Source of the DNA: Ottowia sp.
GTDB lineage: Bacteria; Pseudomonadota; Gammaproteobacteria; Burkholderiales; Burkholderiaceae_C
Direction: 5' to 3'
NCBI GenBank assembly: GCA_017997715.1
Contig: JAGOEM010000011.1
Coordinates: 1-33,390, forward strand
Length of the DNA stretch: 33,390 nt
Shown: positions 1,471-33,390 of the stretch, in pieces
Layout of the letters: each line of letters begins with the position of its first letter
How positions within the stretch are numbered: position 1 is the stretch's first letter
Position numbers and translations under genes: made by a program
The notes under the pieces: model-generated
What the model saw: the letters and a program-made list of their open reading frames with translations, nothing else
What the model was told of the DNA's origin: nothing
Database searches by the model: none

Positions 1471-1530
1471 TTGCTATATGTTAAATAGCTGCCTTCGCAT
1501 GACTGGCGGGCGCTGAAGCCACTTTTTATT
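1471..1530 (+). repeat. Interspersed palindromic element, copy 1
   Basis: Starts with TTGCTATATG and ATAGCTGCC, then a GC-rich half ending in GGCGCTGAAGCC and a T-rich tail. It lies between two convergent genes and ends at the stop codon of the leftward one. It may act as a terminator for both; this is inference from position and the T-rich end. Confidence 0.75.
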
Positions 1531-8362: not shown

Positions 8363-8416
8363 AAAATCGGCCATCCGCGCACTCCCTTGCTGCGCAACCA
8401 GCTATCAAATTCAAAG
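8363..8416 (-). repeat. Interspersed palindromic element, copy 2, at the darP start
   Basis: Reads AAAATCGGCC, then a GC-rich middle (GCGCACTCCCTTGCTGCGCA), then CCAGCTATCAAATTC. It aligns base for base in its outer parts with the copy inside trmJ. It ends five bases before the darP ATG, so the element forms the leader and the ribosome-binding region of darP. Confidence 0.7.
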
Positions 8417-8420
8417 CGCC

Positions 8421-9119
8421 ATGTCCCGTAAACCCAAAAAAGGCTATTTCGTCCGCGGCAAGTTCGTGGCCGAAGGCAGTGAAATGGACGAGGCCCTGCA
8501 GCGCGAAATGCGCGGCGACGGCCCCAGCAAGACCGACCTCAAGGCTCTCAGCACCGAATTGCAGGCGCTGGGCGAAGAGCTGCTCAGCCTGCGCACCGAC
8601 CTGTTCGACGCGCTCGATCTGCCCACCAAGCTGGTGGACGCGCTGCACGAGCTGCGCCGCATCACCAATTTCGAGGGGCGGCGGCGCCAGGCCCAGTTCG
8701 TCGGCAAGCAGATGCGCCTGCTGGACGACGAGCAGGTGGCCGCCGTGCGCGAAGCGCTGGAGGTGCAGCGCAAAGGTTCGGCCAAAGACACGCTGCGCCT
8801 GCACGCGGCAGAAAACTGGCGCGACCGCCTGATTGCCGATGACGATGCGCTGAACGCCTGGGTCAGCCAGTTTCCCGACACCGACATCCAGCAGCTGCGC
8901 GCCCTGGTGCGCCAGGCCCGCAAAGACGCCCCCAGCGCCACCGCCGCAGCGCAGGCCGAAAGCCAAGGCCAGGCGCCGCGCCAGGGCCGCGCCTACCGCG
9001 ATCTGTTCCAGCTGGTGCGCAACACGCTGGAACAGGCCGAGGCTGCGGCCAGCCAGCAGCCGGTGCAGCCCATCGACCCGGATGAGGCAGGATATACCGA
9101 CGATGCGCGCGCCAGATAA
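8421..9119 (+). CDS. darP: Ribosome biogenesis factor DarP (YjgA, DUF615)
   Basis: DarP (dual-action ribosomal protein, formerly YjgA) binds pre-50S particles and helps late assembly of the large subunit near the peptidyl transferase centre. The product has 232 residues, longer than the E. coli protein (about 183). The extra length lies in a C-terminal tail rich in Ala and Gln (from about residue 170). The core motifs are SRKPKKGYF at the start, LDLPTKLVDALHELRRITNFEGRRRQ, QFVGKQMRLLD and a WRDRLIADDDALNAWV segment. The ATG at 8421 gives the expected start; the frame is open further upstream but encodes no homologous sequence. A repeat element sits just before it, and a partial copy begins at its stop. 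Confidence 0.93.
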   Translation: MSRKPKKGYFVRGKFVAEGSEMDEALQREMRGDGPSKTDLKALSTELQALGEELLSLRTDLFDALDLPTKLVDALHELRRITNFEGRRRQAQFVGKQMRLLDDEQVAAVREALEVQRKGSAKDTLRLHAAENWRDRLIADDDALNAWVSQFPDTDIQQLRALVRQARKDAPSATAAAQAESQGQAPRQGRAYRDLFQLVRNTLEQAEAAASQQPVQPIDPDEAGYTDDARAR

Positions 9120-9144
9120 GCGCTGGCAGCTATGAATTGAATAG
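9108..9144 (-). repeat. Interspersed palindromic element, partial copy 3
   Basis: AAGCGCTGGCAGCTATGAATTGAATAG matches the AT-rich half and one arm of the hairpin; the other arm is only loosely present in the end of darP (GCGCGCCAGAT). It spans the darP stop and fills the gap to mog. Confidence 0.5.
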
Positions 9145-9154
9145 TGATCAAGCC

Positions 9155-9979: not shown

Positions 9980-10033
9980 GCTATCCTATCAATAGCTGCC
10001 AGCGCCCATCCAGCGGGCGCTGTCGGCCTGAAA
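9980..10033 (+). repeat. Interspersed palindromic element, copy 4
   Basis: GCTATCCTATCAATAGCTGCC is followed by AGCGCCC / GGGCGCT, a perfect hairpin, and TCGGCCTGAAA. It lies between convergent mog and the IPTL-CTERM gene and stops four bases short of the latter's stop codon. Confidence 0.8.
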
Positions 10034-14487: not shown

Positions 14488-14553
14488 TTTAAGACACGAA
14501 TTAGCCGCCAGCGCGCAATGGCGCGGCGCGAGCAGCTACTGTTTGGATAGCAT
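14488..14553 (-). repeat. Interspersed palindromic element, copy 5
   Basis: AATTAGCCGCCAGCGCGC, then a mirror arm GCGCGGCGCG, then AGCAGCTACTGTTTGGATAGC. A diverged copy just downstream of the membrane protein gene. Confidence 0.6.
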
Positions 14554-14698: not shown

Positions 14699-14739
14699 CA
14701 GCTTCGGCGAGAACGGCACCCGAACCGCACGCAACAAAC

Positions 14740-14790
14740 GCTATTGAATTGAAAGCTGCCGGCGCCCATCTGCATTGCGCTGCAGCCTGA
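14740..14790 (+). repeat. Interspersed palindromic element, copy 6
   Basis: GCTATTGAATTGAAAGCTGCC, then GGCGCCCATCTGCATTGCGC, then TGCAGCC. A full-length copy about 60 bases beyond the lipoprotein stop. Confidence 0.75.
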
Positions 14791-14851
14791 TTGGATCAAT
14801 GACCGAAGCCAGGCGCGCCAATCATGGCGCCGTCGTTTCGTCGCGAAAGCC

Positions 14852-16375: not shown

Positions 16376-17218
16376 CTACTGCGGCGGCGCTGCACGCGAC
16401 CGACCGGGCGCCTGGGCCGAAGCGGCCTGCATCGCCTTGGCAATCCCCCGCAGGATGTGGATTTCTTCCACCGTGGGCTGGGCGCGGTTGAACAGCTGCG
16501 TCAGCCGGGGCATCAGCTTCTTGGGCGCGGCGGGGTCCAGAAAACCAATGTCGATCAGCGCCTGCTGCCAGTGCGCCAGCATGCCGGCCTGCTGCGCGGC
16601 GTCGGCGTGGGTGGGGGCGGCGGTGGCCGGCTGCACGCCAAAACCCCAGCCGCGTGCCTGCAGCGCCTGGCGCCAGTCGTAGGCGATCAGCTGCACGGCG
16701 GCGGCGATGTTGAGCGAGCCGTAGGCCGGATCGGTAGGAATGCTGAGCGCGACGTGGCAGCGGTACACATCGTCGTTGGCCATGCCGTAGCGTTCTGAGC
16801 CAAACAGGAACGCCACGCCTTGGGGCTGCGCCAGATCCAGGGTAGTTTTATGTGCAAAATCGGCCTGTAGCGCCCTATCTTCCTGCGCAGGCAGCTCATC
16901 ATTCAATAGCATATTGAAATGCGCACGGGGCGCCTGCGTGGGTGGGCCGAAGTCGCGCGGGGTCATGGCGGTGGCGCACAGGTGGGTCATGCCGTCCAGC
17001 GCTTCTTCCAGCGTGGCCACGCTGCGCGCGCGCGCCAGCACGTCGGCGGCGCCGCTGGCGCGTTCGATGGCCTCGTCGCGCGTCAGCACGTCGGGCCAGC
17101 GCGGGCGCACCAGCACCAGGTCGTCAAAGCCCATCACCTTCATGGCGCGGGCGATGGCGCCCACGTTGCCGGCGTGGCTGGTTTCAATCAAGACAAAACG
17201 CGTGCGGGGCTGAAGCAT
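16376..17218 (-). CDS. trmJ: tRNA (Cm32/Um32) methyltransferase TrmJ with repeat-derived insert
   Basis: SPOUT-class 2'-O-methyltransferase acting on position 32 of the tRNA anticodon loop. The 280-residue product opens with RFVLIETSHAGNVGAIARAMKVMGF, the family signature, and has VAFLFGSERYGM and ALSIPTDPAYGSLNIAAAVQ, which make the SAM-binding knot. Between motif 1 and motif 2, about residues 101-126 (FNMLLNDELPAQEDRALQAD...) are not typical of the family. Their DNA is a copy of the interspersed palindromic element (16843-16918), in frame. The inserted stretch is also much richer in A and T than the rest of the gene. The insert lies in a loop ahead of the knot, so the enzyme may still work. 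The ATG at 17218 gives the standard start. Confidence 0.94.
   Translation of the reverse strand: MLQPRTRFVLIETSHAGNVGAIARAMKVMGFDDLVLVRPRWPDVLTRDEAIERASGAADVLARARSVATLEEALDGMTHLCATAMTPRDFGPPTQAPRAHFNMLLNDELPAQEDRALQADFAHKTTLDLAQPQGVAFLFGSERYGMANDDVYRCHVALSIPTDPAYGSLNIAAAVQLIAYDWRQALQARGWGFGVQPATAAPTHADAAQQAGMLAHWQQALIDIGFLDPAAPKKLMPRLTQLFNRAQPTVEEIHILRGIAKAMQAASAQAPGRSRAAPPQ
16843..16918 (-). repeat. Interspersed palindromic element, copy 7, in frame inside trmJ
   Basis: AAAATCGGCCTGTAGCGCCC, then CTGCGCAGGCAGCTCATC and ATTCAATAGC. It matches copy 2 (AAAATCGGCC...) and copy 11 (TAGCGCCC...GCGCAGGCAGCT). In the trmJ frame it is open throughout and encodes about 25 residues. Confidence 0.8.
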
Positions 17219-17624: not shown

Positions 17625-17637
17625 ACGCGGCCTGTCC

Positions 17638-17694
17638 GCTATGGATACGGTAGCTGCTGGCGCTGGATGGACAAGCGCCAGTGGCTTTTTTTAT
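17638..17694 (+). repeat. Interspersed palindromic element, copy 8, with terminator form
   Basis: GCTATGGATACGGTAGCTGC, then TGGCGCTGGATGG / ACAAGCGCCA and a run of seven T after GGC. The hairpin plus T-run looks like a Rho-independent terminator for ppnP, 13 bases after its stop. Confidence 0.8.
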
Positions 17695-18860: not shown

Positions 18861-18919
18861 AGCTATCTATTTAGTAGCTGCCTGCGCCCATTCAGATTGC
18901 GCGACAGGCCTATTTCACT
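18861..18919 (+). repeat. Interspersed palindromic element, copy 9
   Basis: AGCTATCTATTTAGTAGCTGCC, then TGCGCCCATTCAGATTGCGC, then GACAGGCC and an AT-rich tail. It lies in the 295-base gap between the fusion regulator and the MFS gene. Confidence 0.8.
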
Positions 18920-21002: not shown

Positions 21003-21054
21003 GCTACGGTTTATATAGCTGCCTGCGCACGTCCAGCGTGCGCTACAGCCCTAA
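21003..21054 (+). repeat. Interspersed palindromic element, copy 10, at the murB stop
   Basis: GCTACGGTTTATATAGCTGCC, then TGCGCACGTCCAGCGTGCGC, then TACAGCCCTAAATG. The murB stop codon (21051-21053) falls in its end, and it also gives the in-frame stop ahead of the next gene. Confidence 0.85.
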
Positions 21055-22103
21055 ATGACCACAGGCTCTGGCTCCAGCCGGATACCAAAGCGCTCGTACA
21101 CGCTGGTCTGTATGGCTTTGGCCAGCGTCATCACTTCGCCGCCGGTGGCGGGGTTGTCGGTGCCGCCGCGGTTGACCAGGACCAGCGCCTGCTTGTCGTA
21201 CACGGCGGCGTTGCCCACGCTTTTGCCCTTCCAGCCACAGGCGTCGATCAGCCAGCCGGCGGCCAGTTTCACGCTGCCGTCGGGCATGGGGTAGTGCACC
21301 ACTTTCGGGTCGCGGCCGATGATGTCCTGGCATTGTTCGGGCGACACCGTGGGGTTCTTGAAGAAGCTGCCGGCGTTGCCGATGACGGCGGGGTCGGGCA
21401 GCTTGGCGCGGCGGATGGCGACGATCCAGTCGTAGATCTGCTGCGCGCTGGGCGCGGTGATGCCGGTCTCTGCCATGCGGCGTTCCAGATCCAGATAACC
21501 CAGCACGGGCTGCCAGGCCTTGGGCAGCGCGAAGCGCACGCGCAAGATCAGGGCGCGGCCGGCCAGGCCCAGGTCGCCCGGCTCCAGCGCGGTGTGCTTG
21601 AAGACCGAATCGCGGTAGCCAAAGCCGCATTGCGCGGCGTTCAGCGTGAACAACTCGCCCGTCAGCAGGTCGATGGCGTCCAGCTCATGAAAGCGGTCTT
21701 GCAACTCGACGCCGTAGGCGCCGATGTTCTGCACCGGCGTGGCGCCCACGGTGCCGGGAATCAGCGCCAGGTTTTCCAGGCCGGGCAAACCTTGGCGCAG
21801 CGTCCAGCCGACGAAGTCGTGCCAGTTTTCGCCGCCACCGGCTTGCACAATGGTGTGGCGCTCGGTCTGGCTGACGATGTGGCGCCCGGGCACTTCGACC
21901 TTGAGCACCACGGCCTTGAGGTCGCCGGTCAGCACGATGTTGCTGCCGCCGCCCAGCACGAAGCGCGGCAGCAGGGCCAGATCGGCATCGGCCAGCACGG
22001 CGTGCACATCGTCTTCGCTGCGCACGCGCACCAGTGCGGCGGCACGGGCGGAAATGCCAAAGCTGTTGAGTGGCTGAAGGGGGACGTTGCTTTCCACGAA
22101 CAT
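21051..22103 (-). CDS. murB: UDP-N-acetylenolpyruvoylglucosamine reductase
   Basis: FAD enzyme that reduces the enolpyruvyl group to make UDP-MurNAc, the second committed step of peptidoglycan synthesis. The 350-residue product is the type I (E. coli-like) form by length. Seen here: NSFGISARA near the start, FVLGGGSNIVLTGD for the FAD phosphates, LALIPGTVGATPVQNIGAYG, the GYRDSVFK loop of type I enzymes, and GNAGSFFKNP carrying the catalytic serine. LEPEPVVI at the end carries the glutamate. The start at 22103 (MFVESNVPLQPLNSF) is the family start. It is divergent from the DUF2164 gene. Its stop lies within a palindromic element. Confidence 0.96.
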   Translation of the reverse strand: MFVESNVPLQPLNSFGISARAAALVRVRSEDDVHAVLADADLALLPRFVLGGGSNIVLTGDLKAVVLKVEVPGRHIVSQTERHTIVQAGGGENWHDFVGWTLRQGLPGLENLALIPGTVGATPVQNIGAYGVELQDRFHELDAIDLLTGELFTLNAAQCGFGYRDSVFKHTALEPGDLGLAGRALILRVRFALPKAWQPVLGYLDLERRMAETGITAPSAQQIYDWIVAIRRAKLPDPAVIGNAGSFFKNPTVSPEQCQDIIGRDPKVVHYPMPDGSVKLAAGWLIDACGWKGKSVGNAAVYDKQALVLVNRGGTDNPATGGEVMTLAKAIQTSVYERFGIRLEPEPVVI

Positions 22104-24928: not shown

Positions 24929-24986
24929 AACAAAACCACCTCTAGCGCCCGTCCAGTGGGCGCAGGCAGCTCTTGTTTTAAGAGCA
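24929..24986 (-). repeat. Interspersed palindromic element, copy 11
   Basis: AACAAAACCACCTCTAGCGCCC, then GTCCAGTGGGCGC, then AGGCAGCTCTTGTTTTAAG. It lies between convergent SUKH-like and ridA genes and ends at the ridA stop; the A-rich left end reads as a T-run on the minus strand, fitting a terminator for ridA. Confidence 0.85.
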
Positions 24987-25969: not shown

Positions 25970-25978
25970 GTGAACTCC

Positions 25979-26031
25979 TGAAATAATAGCTGCTTGCGCT
26001 TGATGGGCAAGCGACGGACTGCTATTTTGCC
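25979..26031 (+). repeat. Interspersed palindromic element, copy 12, at the yidD stop
   Basis: AATAATAGCTGCTTGCGCTTG / ATGGGCAAGCG, then GACTGCTATTTTGCC. The TAG stop of the yidD frame (26024-26022) lies in its end. It sits 10 bases before plsY on the minus strand. Confidence 0.85.
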
Positions 26032-31391: not shown

Positions 31392-31445
31392 TATTTATGC
31401 CTCCAGCGCCCTATCCACGGGCGCGGACAGCTATCAAAATTAAAG
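31392..31445 (-). repeat. Interspersed palindromic element, copy 13, before pepN
   Basis: TTATTTATGCCTCCAGCGCCC, then TATCCACGGGCGC, then GGACAGCTATCAAAATTAAAG. It ends about 15 bases before the pepN ATG, so it forms part of the pepN leader. Confidence 0.8.
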
Positions 31446-31460
31446 TAAAAAGGAATTCGC

Positions 31461-33390
31461 ATGCGCGAAGGACACAGCACCGTCACCCGACGTCAAGACT
31501 ACGCCCCGCCCGCTTTCTGGATCGACAGCGTTGCGCTGACGTTCGATCTGGAGCCCACCAAGACGCGGGTGCTCAACAAGATGACCCTGCGCCGCAACCC
31601 CGACGTGCCGCCGCAGGCGCTGCGCCTGGCTGGCGACGAGTTGAACCTGGCGCGCGTCCTGCTGGCCGGCCAGGGCTGCAGCTTCCGCATGGAGGGTGAA
31701 ACCCTGGTGCTGGAAAACCTGCCCGAAGGCACCGAGCCTTTCGAGCTGGAACTGTTCACCACCTGCAACCCCGAAAAGAACAGCAAGCTGATGGGCCTGT
31801 TCATGAGCGGGGGCGACTTTTTCACCCAATGCGAAGCCGAGGGCTTTCGCCGCATCACCTACTTCCTGGACCGCCCGGATGTGATGGCCACCTACACCGT
31901 CACGCTGCGCGCCGACAAGCAGCGCTACCCGGTGCTGCTGTCCAACGGCAACCTGATCGACGAGGGCGAGCTGGAGGGCGGGCGCCACTTCACCACCTGG
32001 CACGACCCGCACAAGAAACCCTGCTACCTGTTCGCCCTGGTGGCGGGCCAGCTGGTGGCGCGCGAGCAGCGCATCACCACCCGGTCGGGGCGCGACCATT
32101 TGCTGCAGGTGTTTGTGCGCCCGGGCGATCTGGACCAGACCGAGCACGCGATGAATTCGCTGGTGCATTCCGTGCTGTGGGACGAAGCGCGCTTTGGCCT
32201 GAAGCTGGACCTGGACCGCTTCATGGTCGTGGCCACGTCCGACTTCAACGCCGGCGCGATGGAGAACAAGGGCCTGAACATCTTCAACACGAAGTACGTG
32301 CTGGCCAAGCCATCCACCGCCACCGACGGCGATTTCGACGCGGTGGAAAGCGTGATCGGCCACGAGTACTTTCACAACTGGACGGGCAACCGCGTCACCT
32401 GCCGCGACTGGTTCCAGCTGTCGCTGAAAGAGGGGCTGACCGTCTTCCGTGACCAGGAATTCAGCCAGGACCTGGCCGGCACGGCCAGCGCGCGCGCCGT
32501 CAAGCGCATTCAGGACGTCATCAACCTGCGCACCCAGCAGTTCCCTGAAGACGCTGGCCCCATGGCGCACCCGGTGCGCCCGGATCAGTACCTGGAGATC
32601 AGCAACTTCTACACCACCACCATCTATGAAAAAGGCGCCGAGGTGGTGCGCATGTACCAAACCCTGGCGGCCAGCCCATCGGACCCGCTGGGGCGCGAGG
32701 GCTTTCGCCGCGGCATGGACCTGTACTTTCAGCGCCACGACGGCCAGGCCGTCACCTGCGACGATTTCGCCGCCGCCATGGCCGATGCCAACCCCGACAG
32801 CGAACTGGCGCGCCTGCTGCCGCAGTTCAAGCGCTGGTACAGCCAGGCGGGCACGCCGGTCGTCAGGGCCGAAGGCCGCTACGACAGCGCCGCGCGCAGC
32901 TACACCCTGACCCTGTCGCAAAGCTGCCCCGCCACGCACGGCCAGCCGGCCAAGCAGCCCTTCGTCATTCCCGTGCGGCTGGGCCTGGTGGGCGCAGACG
33001 GGCGCGACGTGCCGCTGCAGCTGGACCACTGGCAGCGCCCGGTGGAAGGCAGCCACACGCTGGTGCTGACCGAGCCCAGCGCCACCTTCACCTTTGTCGG
33101 TATCGACAGCGAACCCGTGCCTTCGCTGATGCGCGGCTTCTCGGCCCCGGTGGATCTGGAATGGAACGCCACGCCCGAACAGCTGCTGCACCTGCTGGCC
33201 AACGACAGCGACCCGTTCAGCCGCTGGGAATCTGCGCAGCGCCTGGCACTCGGCATCGCTATCGAACAGATAGCTGCCACCGCAGGCCCTGCAAGCGCTA
33301 CACCGCTGAACGATGCTTATCTGGCAGCGCTGCGCGCGGTGCTGCGCCACCCCGATCTGGATCCGGCTTTCAAAGCCCTGGTGCTGACGC
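31461..33390 (+). CDS. pepN: Aminopeptidase N (M1 family), 3' end outside window
   Basis: Zinc exopeptidase removing N-terminal residues from peptides in the cytoplasm. The first 643 residues are present. The ATG at 31461 has AAAAGG upstream. Seen here: an N-terminal beta domain (YAPPAFWIDSVALTFDLEP), GAMEN at residues 265-269 for the substrate N-terminus, and HEYFH (His301, Glu302, His305) with Glu324 eighteen residues on, the zinc site of M1 enzymes. The full protein is usually about 870-900 residues. At about residues 600-615 (AIEQIAATAGPASAT) the DNA is a copy of the palindromic element (33258-33305), in frame. The gene runs off the right edge without a stop. Confidence 0.95.
   Translation, partial: MREGHSTVTRRQDYAPPAFWIDSVALTFDLEPTKTRVLNKMTLRRNPDVPPQALRLAGDELNLARVLLAGQGCSFRMEGETLVLENLPEGTEPFELELFTTCNPEKNSKLMGLFMSGGDFFTQCEAEGFRRITYFLDRPDVMATYTVTLRADKQRYPVLLSNGNLIDEGELEGGRHFTTWHDPHKKPCYLFALVAGQLVAREQRITTRSGRDHLLQVFVRPGDLDQTEHAMNSLVHSVLWDEARFGLKLDLDRFMVVATSDFNAGAMENKGLNIFNTKYVLAKPSTATDGDFDAVESVIGHEYFHNWTGNRVTCRDWFQLSLKEGLTVFRDQEFSQDLAGTASARAVKRIQDVINLRTQQFPEDAGPMAHPVRPDQYLEISNFYTTTIYEKGAEVVRMYQTLAASPSDPLGREGFRRGMDLYFQRHDGQAVTCDDFAAAMADANPDSELARLLPQFKRWYSQAGTPVVRAEGRYDSAARSYTLTLSQSCPATHGQPAKQPFVIPVRLGLVGADGRDVPLQLDHWQRPVEGSHTLVLTEPSATFTFVGIDSEPVPSLMRGFSAPVDLEWNATPEQLLHLLANDSDPFSRWESAQRLALGIAIEQIAATAGPASATPLNDAYLAALRAVLRHPDLDPAFKALVLT
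33258..33305 (+). repeat. Interspersed palindromic element, copy 14, in frame inside pepN
   Basis: GCTATCGAACAGATAGCTGCC, then ACCGCAGGCCCTGCAAGCGC, then TACACCG. The AT-rich half matches copies 4, 6 and 10 closely; the hairpin part is diverged. It is open in the pepN frame. Confidence 0.7.

Follow-up and report, generated by a model that had tools for sequence, protein, structure and literature searches.

The TrmJ-like methyltransferase gene of the window (the whole stretch of 33,390 nucleotides analysed here), which would encode a tRNA-modifying enzyme, contains a copy of a genome-wide repeat of about 57 bp. We consider it likely that this REP-like repeat was captured in frame and is tolerated as a loop of the protein, and that selection or homogenisation maintains its DNA core. 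In-frame capture is a known kind of event, seen with Rickettsia palindromic elements (RPEs) and intragenic REPs. The present repeat family was not found in print. The features of the window are listed in Table 1.

A copy without the usual stops in this frame would have entered the TrmJ loop in an ancestor, or repeatedly in related lineages. The TrmJ-like protein would accommodate it as a surface loop. The DNA core would be kept in TrmJ by a DNA-level factor that reads the repeat or by homogenisation among copies. On this view the insert would owe its maintenance to its DNA, with the protein doing no more than tolerating it.

Table 1. The TrmJ-like gene and the repeat copies of the window.
Feature	Position	Strand	Remarks
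TrmJ-like methyltransferase gene, 280 aa	16376..17218	-	Best fold match E. coli TrmJ 4xbo; NCBIfam TIGR00050 154.6 bits, cut-off 167.15
Repeat copy in the TrmJ-like gene	16857..16911	-	Encodes residues ~103-121; E 1.5e-9, 34.5 bits (window profile without TrmJ); model R1 aligns 16850-16917, 57.3 bits
Repeat copy	1472..1526	+	
Repeat copy	8364..8418	-	Next gene probably starts just after it; in the longer ORF, orthologues match from residue 47 on
Repeat copy	9105..9145	-	Over the 3' end of a gene; common to G011
Repeat copy	9980..10028	+	
Repeat copy	14499..14552	-	
Repeat copy	14739..14792	+	
Repeat copy	17637..17691	+	Common to G011
Repeat copy	18862..18915	+	Common to G011
Repeat copy	21003..21056	+	At the 3' end of a - strand gene; overlaps it and supplies the stop codon; empty site in G023
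Repeat copy	24939..24986	-	
Repeat copy	25975..26013	+	Aligned with a G011 copy
Repeat copy	31395..31446	-	
Repeat copy	33258..33302	+	In a predicted ORF, strand uncertain (long ORFs on both strands)

The TrmJ-like gene and its repeat copy

The predicted fold of the protein has E. coli TrmJ (4xbo) as its best match (E 1.7e-19, TM 0.52/0.63). Its NCBIfam score (TIGR00050) does not reach the cut-offs that NCBI sets for TrmJ, so we call it TrmJ-like. The nearest protein is that of genome G011 (88%), followed among named records by that of Ottowia sp. GY511 (87%). The insert lies after the N-terminal block and before the FGSERYG block, two conserved blocks that we take to be the SPOUT motifs. The loop between them contains 34 residues, compared with 12 in E. 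coli TrmJ (4xbo), which lacks the segment. The GC content is 44.7% at 16843-16918 but 70.3% over the remaining gene, where no other 76-nt stretch falls below 57.9%. The translated frame is open across the insert, with 280 residues and no stop.

A profile built from the 13 non-TrmJ copies of the window recovered the TrmJ copy at E 1.5e-9 with 34.5 bits. This is the clean test, since an earlier profile and model R1 included copies that had been retrieved through their similarity to the TrmJ insert. The same profile matched 30 of 96 distinct TrmJ genes at E <=0.01, the window gene included, all in the loop. The codon-shuffle control gave 1 match in 1,920 TrmJ gene shuffles. A repeat finding within the window had grouped 8370, 16863, 24938 and 31399 into one family. 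The original prediction was thus borne out in placing an AT-rich repeat copy inside TrmJ, in frame and in the loop between the two blocks. It had assigned about 25 residues (101-126) to the element; the repeat-derived part is shorter, about 19 residues (103-121).

Modelling of the structure, which had been proposed as a check, gave a mean pLDDT of 82.4 from 33 sequences, with pLDDT <50 at 114-122. The repeat-encoded segment is probably a floppy loop. Low pLDDT, together with the high dN/dS given below, supports a protein that would tolerate the insert as a surface loop.

The insert across relatives and what is kept of it

We compared 110 TrmJ genes, which encode 96 distinct proteins, and called the repeat at >=10 bits. 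The repeat was present in 32 proteins. Another 38 had a short loop without the repeat, and 26 had a longer loop with no detectable repeat (one of these of unmeasured length). Loops with the repeat contain 39-58 residues (one of 94), and short loops contain 23-35. The typical gain is about 16 residues. The relatives therefore do include the expected short loops, with a smaller gap than the 25 residues foreseen, and the claim that related TrmJ proteins have no such segment fails for the 32 carriers. The original prediction also tied the added residues to the repeat DNA. This stands for the 38 proteins that have neither. Many of the 26 longer loops keep the codon pattern CTA..GAG by eye and look like decayed copies; some (L035, L065, L032 and L118) show no such pattern by eye.

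All + strand loop matches at E <0.05 lie in a single reading frame, which is fully open in 12 of 150 intergenic copies. Most matches begin at gene nt 308 and one begins 3 nt further; several Polaromonas copies and one Comamonas copy start 15-39 nt further on. The TrmJ locus was fetched from 30 genomes. Every one of the 16 that carry the insert has at least 83 repeat matches, a number reached by 1 of the 14 in which no insert was detected. In-frame capture, as originally proposed, here of a repeat found genome-wide, is supported by the TrmJ-blind profile, by loop length and by this restriction to repeat-rich genomes.

The TrmJ gene tree (95 rows, L108 left out) requires 13 changes between the short and long states, or 10 without the undetected long loops. 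It is poorly resolved. Such a tree gives no support for one ancestral insertion, and its 10-13 changes count against our preferred explanation. The TrmJ gene of G017 (L037:1930-2085, -) contains a second, unrelated palindromic repeat in frame directly after the first, and its loop reaches 94 residues. This second repeat had 60 matches listed in G017, counting itself (of 128 candidates, 40 were scored), with 37 more in G023, 11 in G000 (the window genome) and 0 in G011. Its presence marks the TrmJ loop as permissive.

The loop is weakly constrained as protein. Over 13 hand-chosen pairs with some species in common, dN/dS was 0.64 in the insert and 0.17 in other parts of the gene. The dS values were equal (0.38 and 0.37); a DNA constraint, if there is one, therefore acts at some positions only, which counts against the preferred explanation. 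A codon alignment was made of 50 rows, after 8 of 58 long-loop rows (L108, L118, L103, L065, L057, L066, L035 and L032) were dropped as unalignable. In it Glu108 is encoded by GAG in all 45 rows that have Glu, compared with 0.60-0.85 in five other conserved Glu columns. An ungapped alignment of 58 rows shows GAT in 37/37 for the Asp that follows the second GCG/GGG codon, although each of the eight other conserved Asp columns prefers GAC, and AAA in 31/31 for a Lys. Since this alignment was anchored on repeat letters (CT, xAG, C, GCG, GA), its unbiased letters are limited to the AAA codon and to the last position of CTA and GAT. In the codon alignment Leu104 uses CTA in just 28 of 50 rows; the core letters are not all fixed, and this counts against the preferred explanation. 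The GAG, GAT and AAA letters of the insert belong to the repeat and not to the codon habit of the gene. Parts of the repeat DNA core are retained in TrmJ even at synonymous letters.

The repeat profiles of G000 and G011 differ by 1.59, where 200 label shuffles gave 0.67 at most, and those of G014 and G023 by 1.53, against a shuffle maximum of 1.25. Sites within the fetched stretches were scored with each copy left out of its own profile. There were 13 sites for G000/G011, 6 for G011/G023 and 5 for G014/G023, of which 3, 2 and 1 lacked an element in the partner genome; among the three unmatched G000 sites, two are weak matches of 15.7 and 17.7 bits. Own-genome profiles fit orthologous G000/G011 pairs better than exchanged profiles in 10/10 cases, TrmJ included (mean 8.2 bits). 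The advantage was 4/4 for G011/G023 (mean 8.7 bits) and 2/4 for G014/G023 (mean 0.5 bits). In three of four genomes the TrmJ insert scores best under the profile of its own genome, although the margin in G014 is a mere 0.2 bits. The G023 insert instead favours the G014 profile, which, like the G014/G023 result, counts against the preferred explanation.

Repeat copies therefore drift with the family of their own genome in two of the three comparisons. Such a fit is expected of concerted evolution, through a shared DNA reader or copying between sites, but the closest pair is without the effect. The wider reading is that the roughly 1,000 repeats of a genome evolve in concert. The TrmJ copy would be a full member of this set, under DNA-level selection or homogenisation across genera, and the protein would merely accommodate it. 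We hold this wider reading only tentatively.

The loop could instead accept any repeat, so that the TrmJ copies would be independent and decaying, with no role as DNA and a likeness due to recent arrival. This seems to us rather unlikely. Its loop matches share one frame that few intergenic copies leave open, most of them begin at the same nucleotide, and repeated neutral decay would not readily give the uniform Glu108 and Asp codons. The same reading draws on the second repeat of G017, on the state changes of the tree and on the copies that start further along. The in-gene copies of other proteins lie in gapped, variable regions, and the G014/G023 copies do not track their own genomes, which also suits it.

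The repeat family and its placement

The repeat unit has the profile consensus TGCTATTAAATTGATAGCTGCCTGCGCCCGTCGATAGGGCGCTACAGGCCTATTTG. The window contains 14 detected copies, including the one in TrmJ, and 12 of the others have a GC content of 49-65%. G000 is a 3.7-Mb Comamonadaceae genome in 344 contigs. It contained 123 copies in 429 kb, in 20 stretches drawn from contigs already known to hold copies. The density of 0.286 per kb extrapolates to about 1,050 copies per genome, and a direct search of G000 gave at least 150 matches. G011 contained 107 copies in 400 kb (0.268 per kb), in 20 stretches of which 19 were evenly spaced and one held TrmJ. The reversed sequence of each gave 0 copies. 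G024, a genome of the same genus, had 0 copies in 912 kb. Across 60 genomes, the repeat was matched in 27 of 36 from this family and in 0 of 24 from other families. Rfam gave nothing at gathering scores. Plasmid and phage collections searched with the consensus gave no match, a weak test with copies this much diverged.

Pairing is almost universal among copies for just two inverted blocks, GCGC/GCGC and CT/AG. An RNA hairpin with compensatory changes was tried and rejected, being unsupported on 24 copies and on 197 copies. Stem pairing is unsupported within genomes, and this counts against the preferred explanation. Pooling 382 copies of four genomes makes the pairs 28-38 and 29-37 conspicuous (z 3.6-4.5). 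This lends no support to a hairpin, because the off-by-one pairs 29-38 and 28-37 are conspicuous too and the signal comes from differences between genomes.

Copies with their middle outside predicted genes are seldom between divergent genes (3/91 in G000 and 4/80 in G011). Between tandem genes they lie at a median of 23-27 bp from the upstream stop in these two genomes. The repeat supplies the stop codon of a neighbouring gene in G000 (21003-21056) and in G011 (L169:9918-9967). G023 has an empty site (L263:4328-4337) at the stop-supplying position, and its gene seems to end with TGA. The flanks there are too diverged to show a target-site duplication, which together with terminal inverted repeats would mark a MITE. 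No clean insertion boundary or target-site duplication was found among the copies, which counts against the preferred explanation. No strand bias of copies with local GC skew was seen.

Copies inside predicted genes numbered 30 of 123 in G000 and 18 of 107 in G011 (48/230), in all six frames. These lie >=30 nt from either end of a gene predicted by our own gene finder. Five of the 48 are within the first 50 residues, and the copy at 8364 is probably upstream of the real start. Against solved homologues, the gap opposite the repeat-encoded stretch is 13 residues in PgeF/YfiH, 9 in D-amino acid aminotransferase and 8 in EarP. It is 4 residues in Fmt and 2 in a COG1565 protein, and there is none at the second copy of EarP. 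Compared with G024, the PgeF-like, LipB-like and GlyS-like genes (the last two named by eye) show no net change in length at the stretch. Small or absent gaps mean that an in-gene copy is not always a longer protein today; several matches with little or no gain count against the preferred explanation. The EarP gene of G011 (L185:10396-11532) contains two copies in opposite orientation. Two copies each are also present in the large predicted genes L176:1-4074 (resembling UvrA by eye) and L182:1448-5815 of G011 and L153:3693-8372 of G000.

A classic REP or REPIN mobilised by a RAYT and still transposing, with TrmJ as one target, is improbable here. Such a family would account for the high copy number, the stop codons supplied and the few copies between divergent genes, as described for REPs in PMC3733652. 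A companion Y1 transposase is lacking: Y1_Tnp was unmatched in six repeat-bearing genomes (G000, G005, G006, G016, G020 and G021, three of them 99% complete) and present in genomes without a repeat match, such as G029, G033 and G035. On these grounds a RAYT link was rejected. A copy lies within 350 bp of 4 of 12 Y1_Tnp genes, where about 2 are expected at these densities, and 8 of the 12 have no copy within 1 kb. The tag at positions 14-17 is ATAG in 142 and GTAG in 23 of 197 copies. Positions are largely common to G000 and G011 (10/13). The 20 Y1_Tnp matches of G014 include several of identical score and some broken into two pieces, which suggests a recently multiplied insertion sequence.

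A native low-complexity loop that resembles the repeat by chance is hardly credible, despite the 26 longer loops without a detectable repeat and the LipB-like and GlyS-like matches of unchanged length relative to both relatives compared, given the E value obtained from 13 independent copies, the codon-shuffle control, the AT-rich patch, the correlation of the insert with repeat-rich genomes and the 0 copies in G024. The unchanged length at those two genes does mean that some in-gene matches may be chance or very old.

Relation to known repeats and meaning

RPEs are elements of 105-146 bp with long stem-loops (PMC2229807). As described there, they resemble the present repeat in being short, in occurring in intergenic DNA as well as in frame within many conserved genes of unrelated kinds, and in being tolerated in the protein. 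The RPE likeness first noted thus stands for behaviour, with about a fifth of copies in predicted genes, and not for unit length or a long stem: our unit has about 57 bp and only short fixed inverted blocks. It also differs in its extrapolated copy number of about 1,000 and in a TrmJ copy common to several genera.

GTAG/CGTC-tagged REPs have 20-40 bp, and some lie inside ORFs, including tRNA pseudouridine synthase genes (PMC3733652). They share with our repeat the placement between tandem and convergent genes near stops, the TAG stops supplied to neighbours and the ORF copies, according to the description there. Our repeat differs from them in its mostly ATAG tag, its longer unit, its share of copies in predicted genes and in that no RAYT link was found. 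The main text of PMC3733652 mentions none of the terms Comamona, Acidovorax, Delftia and Polaromonas. The BRE family of Betaproteobacteria, including Comamonadaceae, is mostly intergenic with some copies in genes. It is described with about 90 bp, 69% GC in Bordetella and at most 29 reported copies (PMC3110155). By that description, our repeat is set apart by its shorter unit, lower GC content and more copies. A literature search, sequence words included, found no paper describing this Comamonadaceae repeat family; the passages found in a Rhodoferax genome paper concern CRISPR only.

Rickettsia and some scattered REP cases provide the best-known examples of in-frame repeat capture. In the present family such capture is frequent, at about one-fifth of the copies sampled in two genomes, and the TrmJ case can be traced across several genera. 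The synonymous letters of the TrmJ insert let one ask directly which of the two, peptide or DNA, accounts for its retention. Should the concerted drift be confirmed, an unknown factor or copying process would act on about a thousand short sites.
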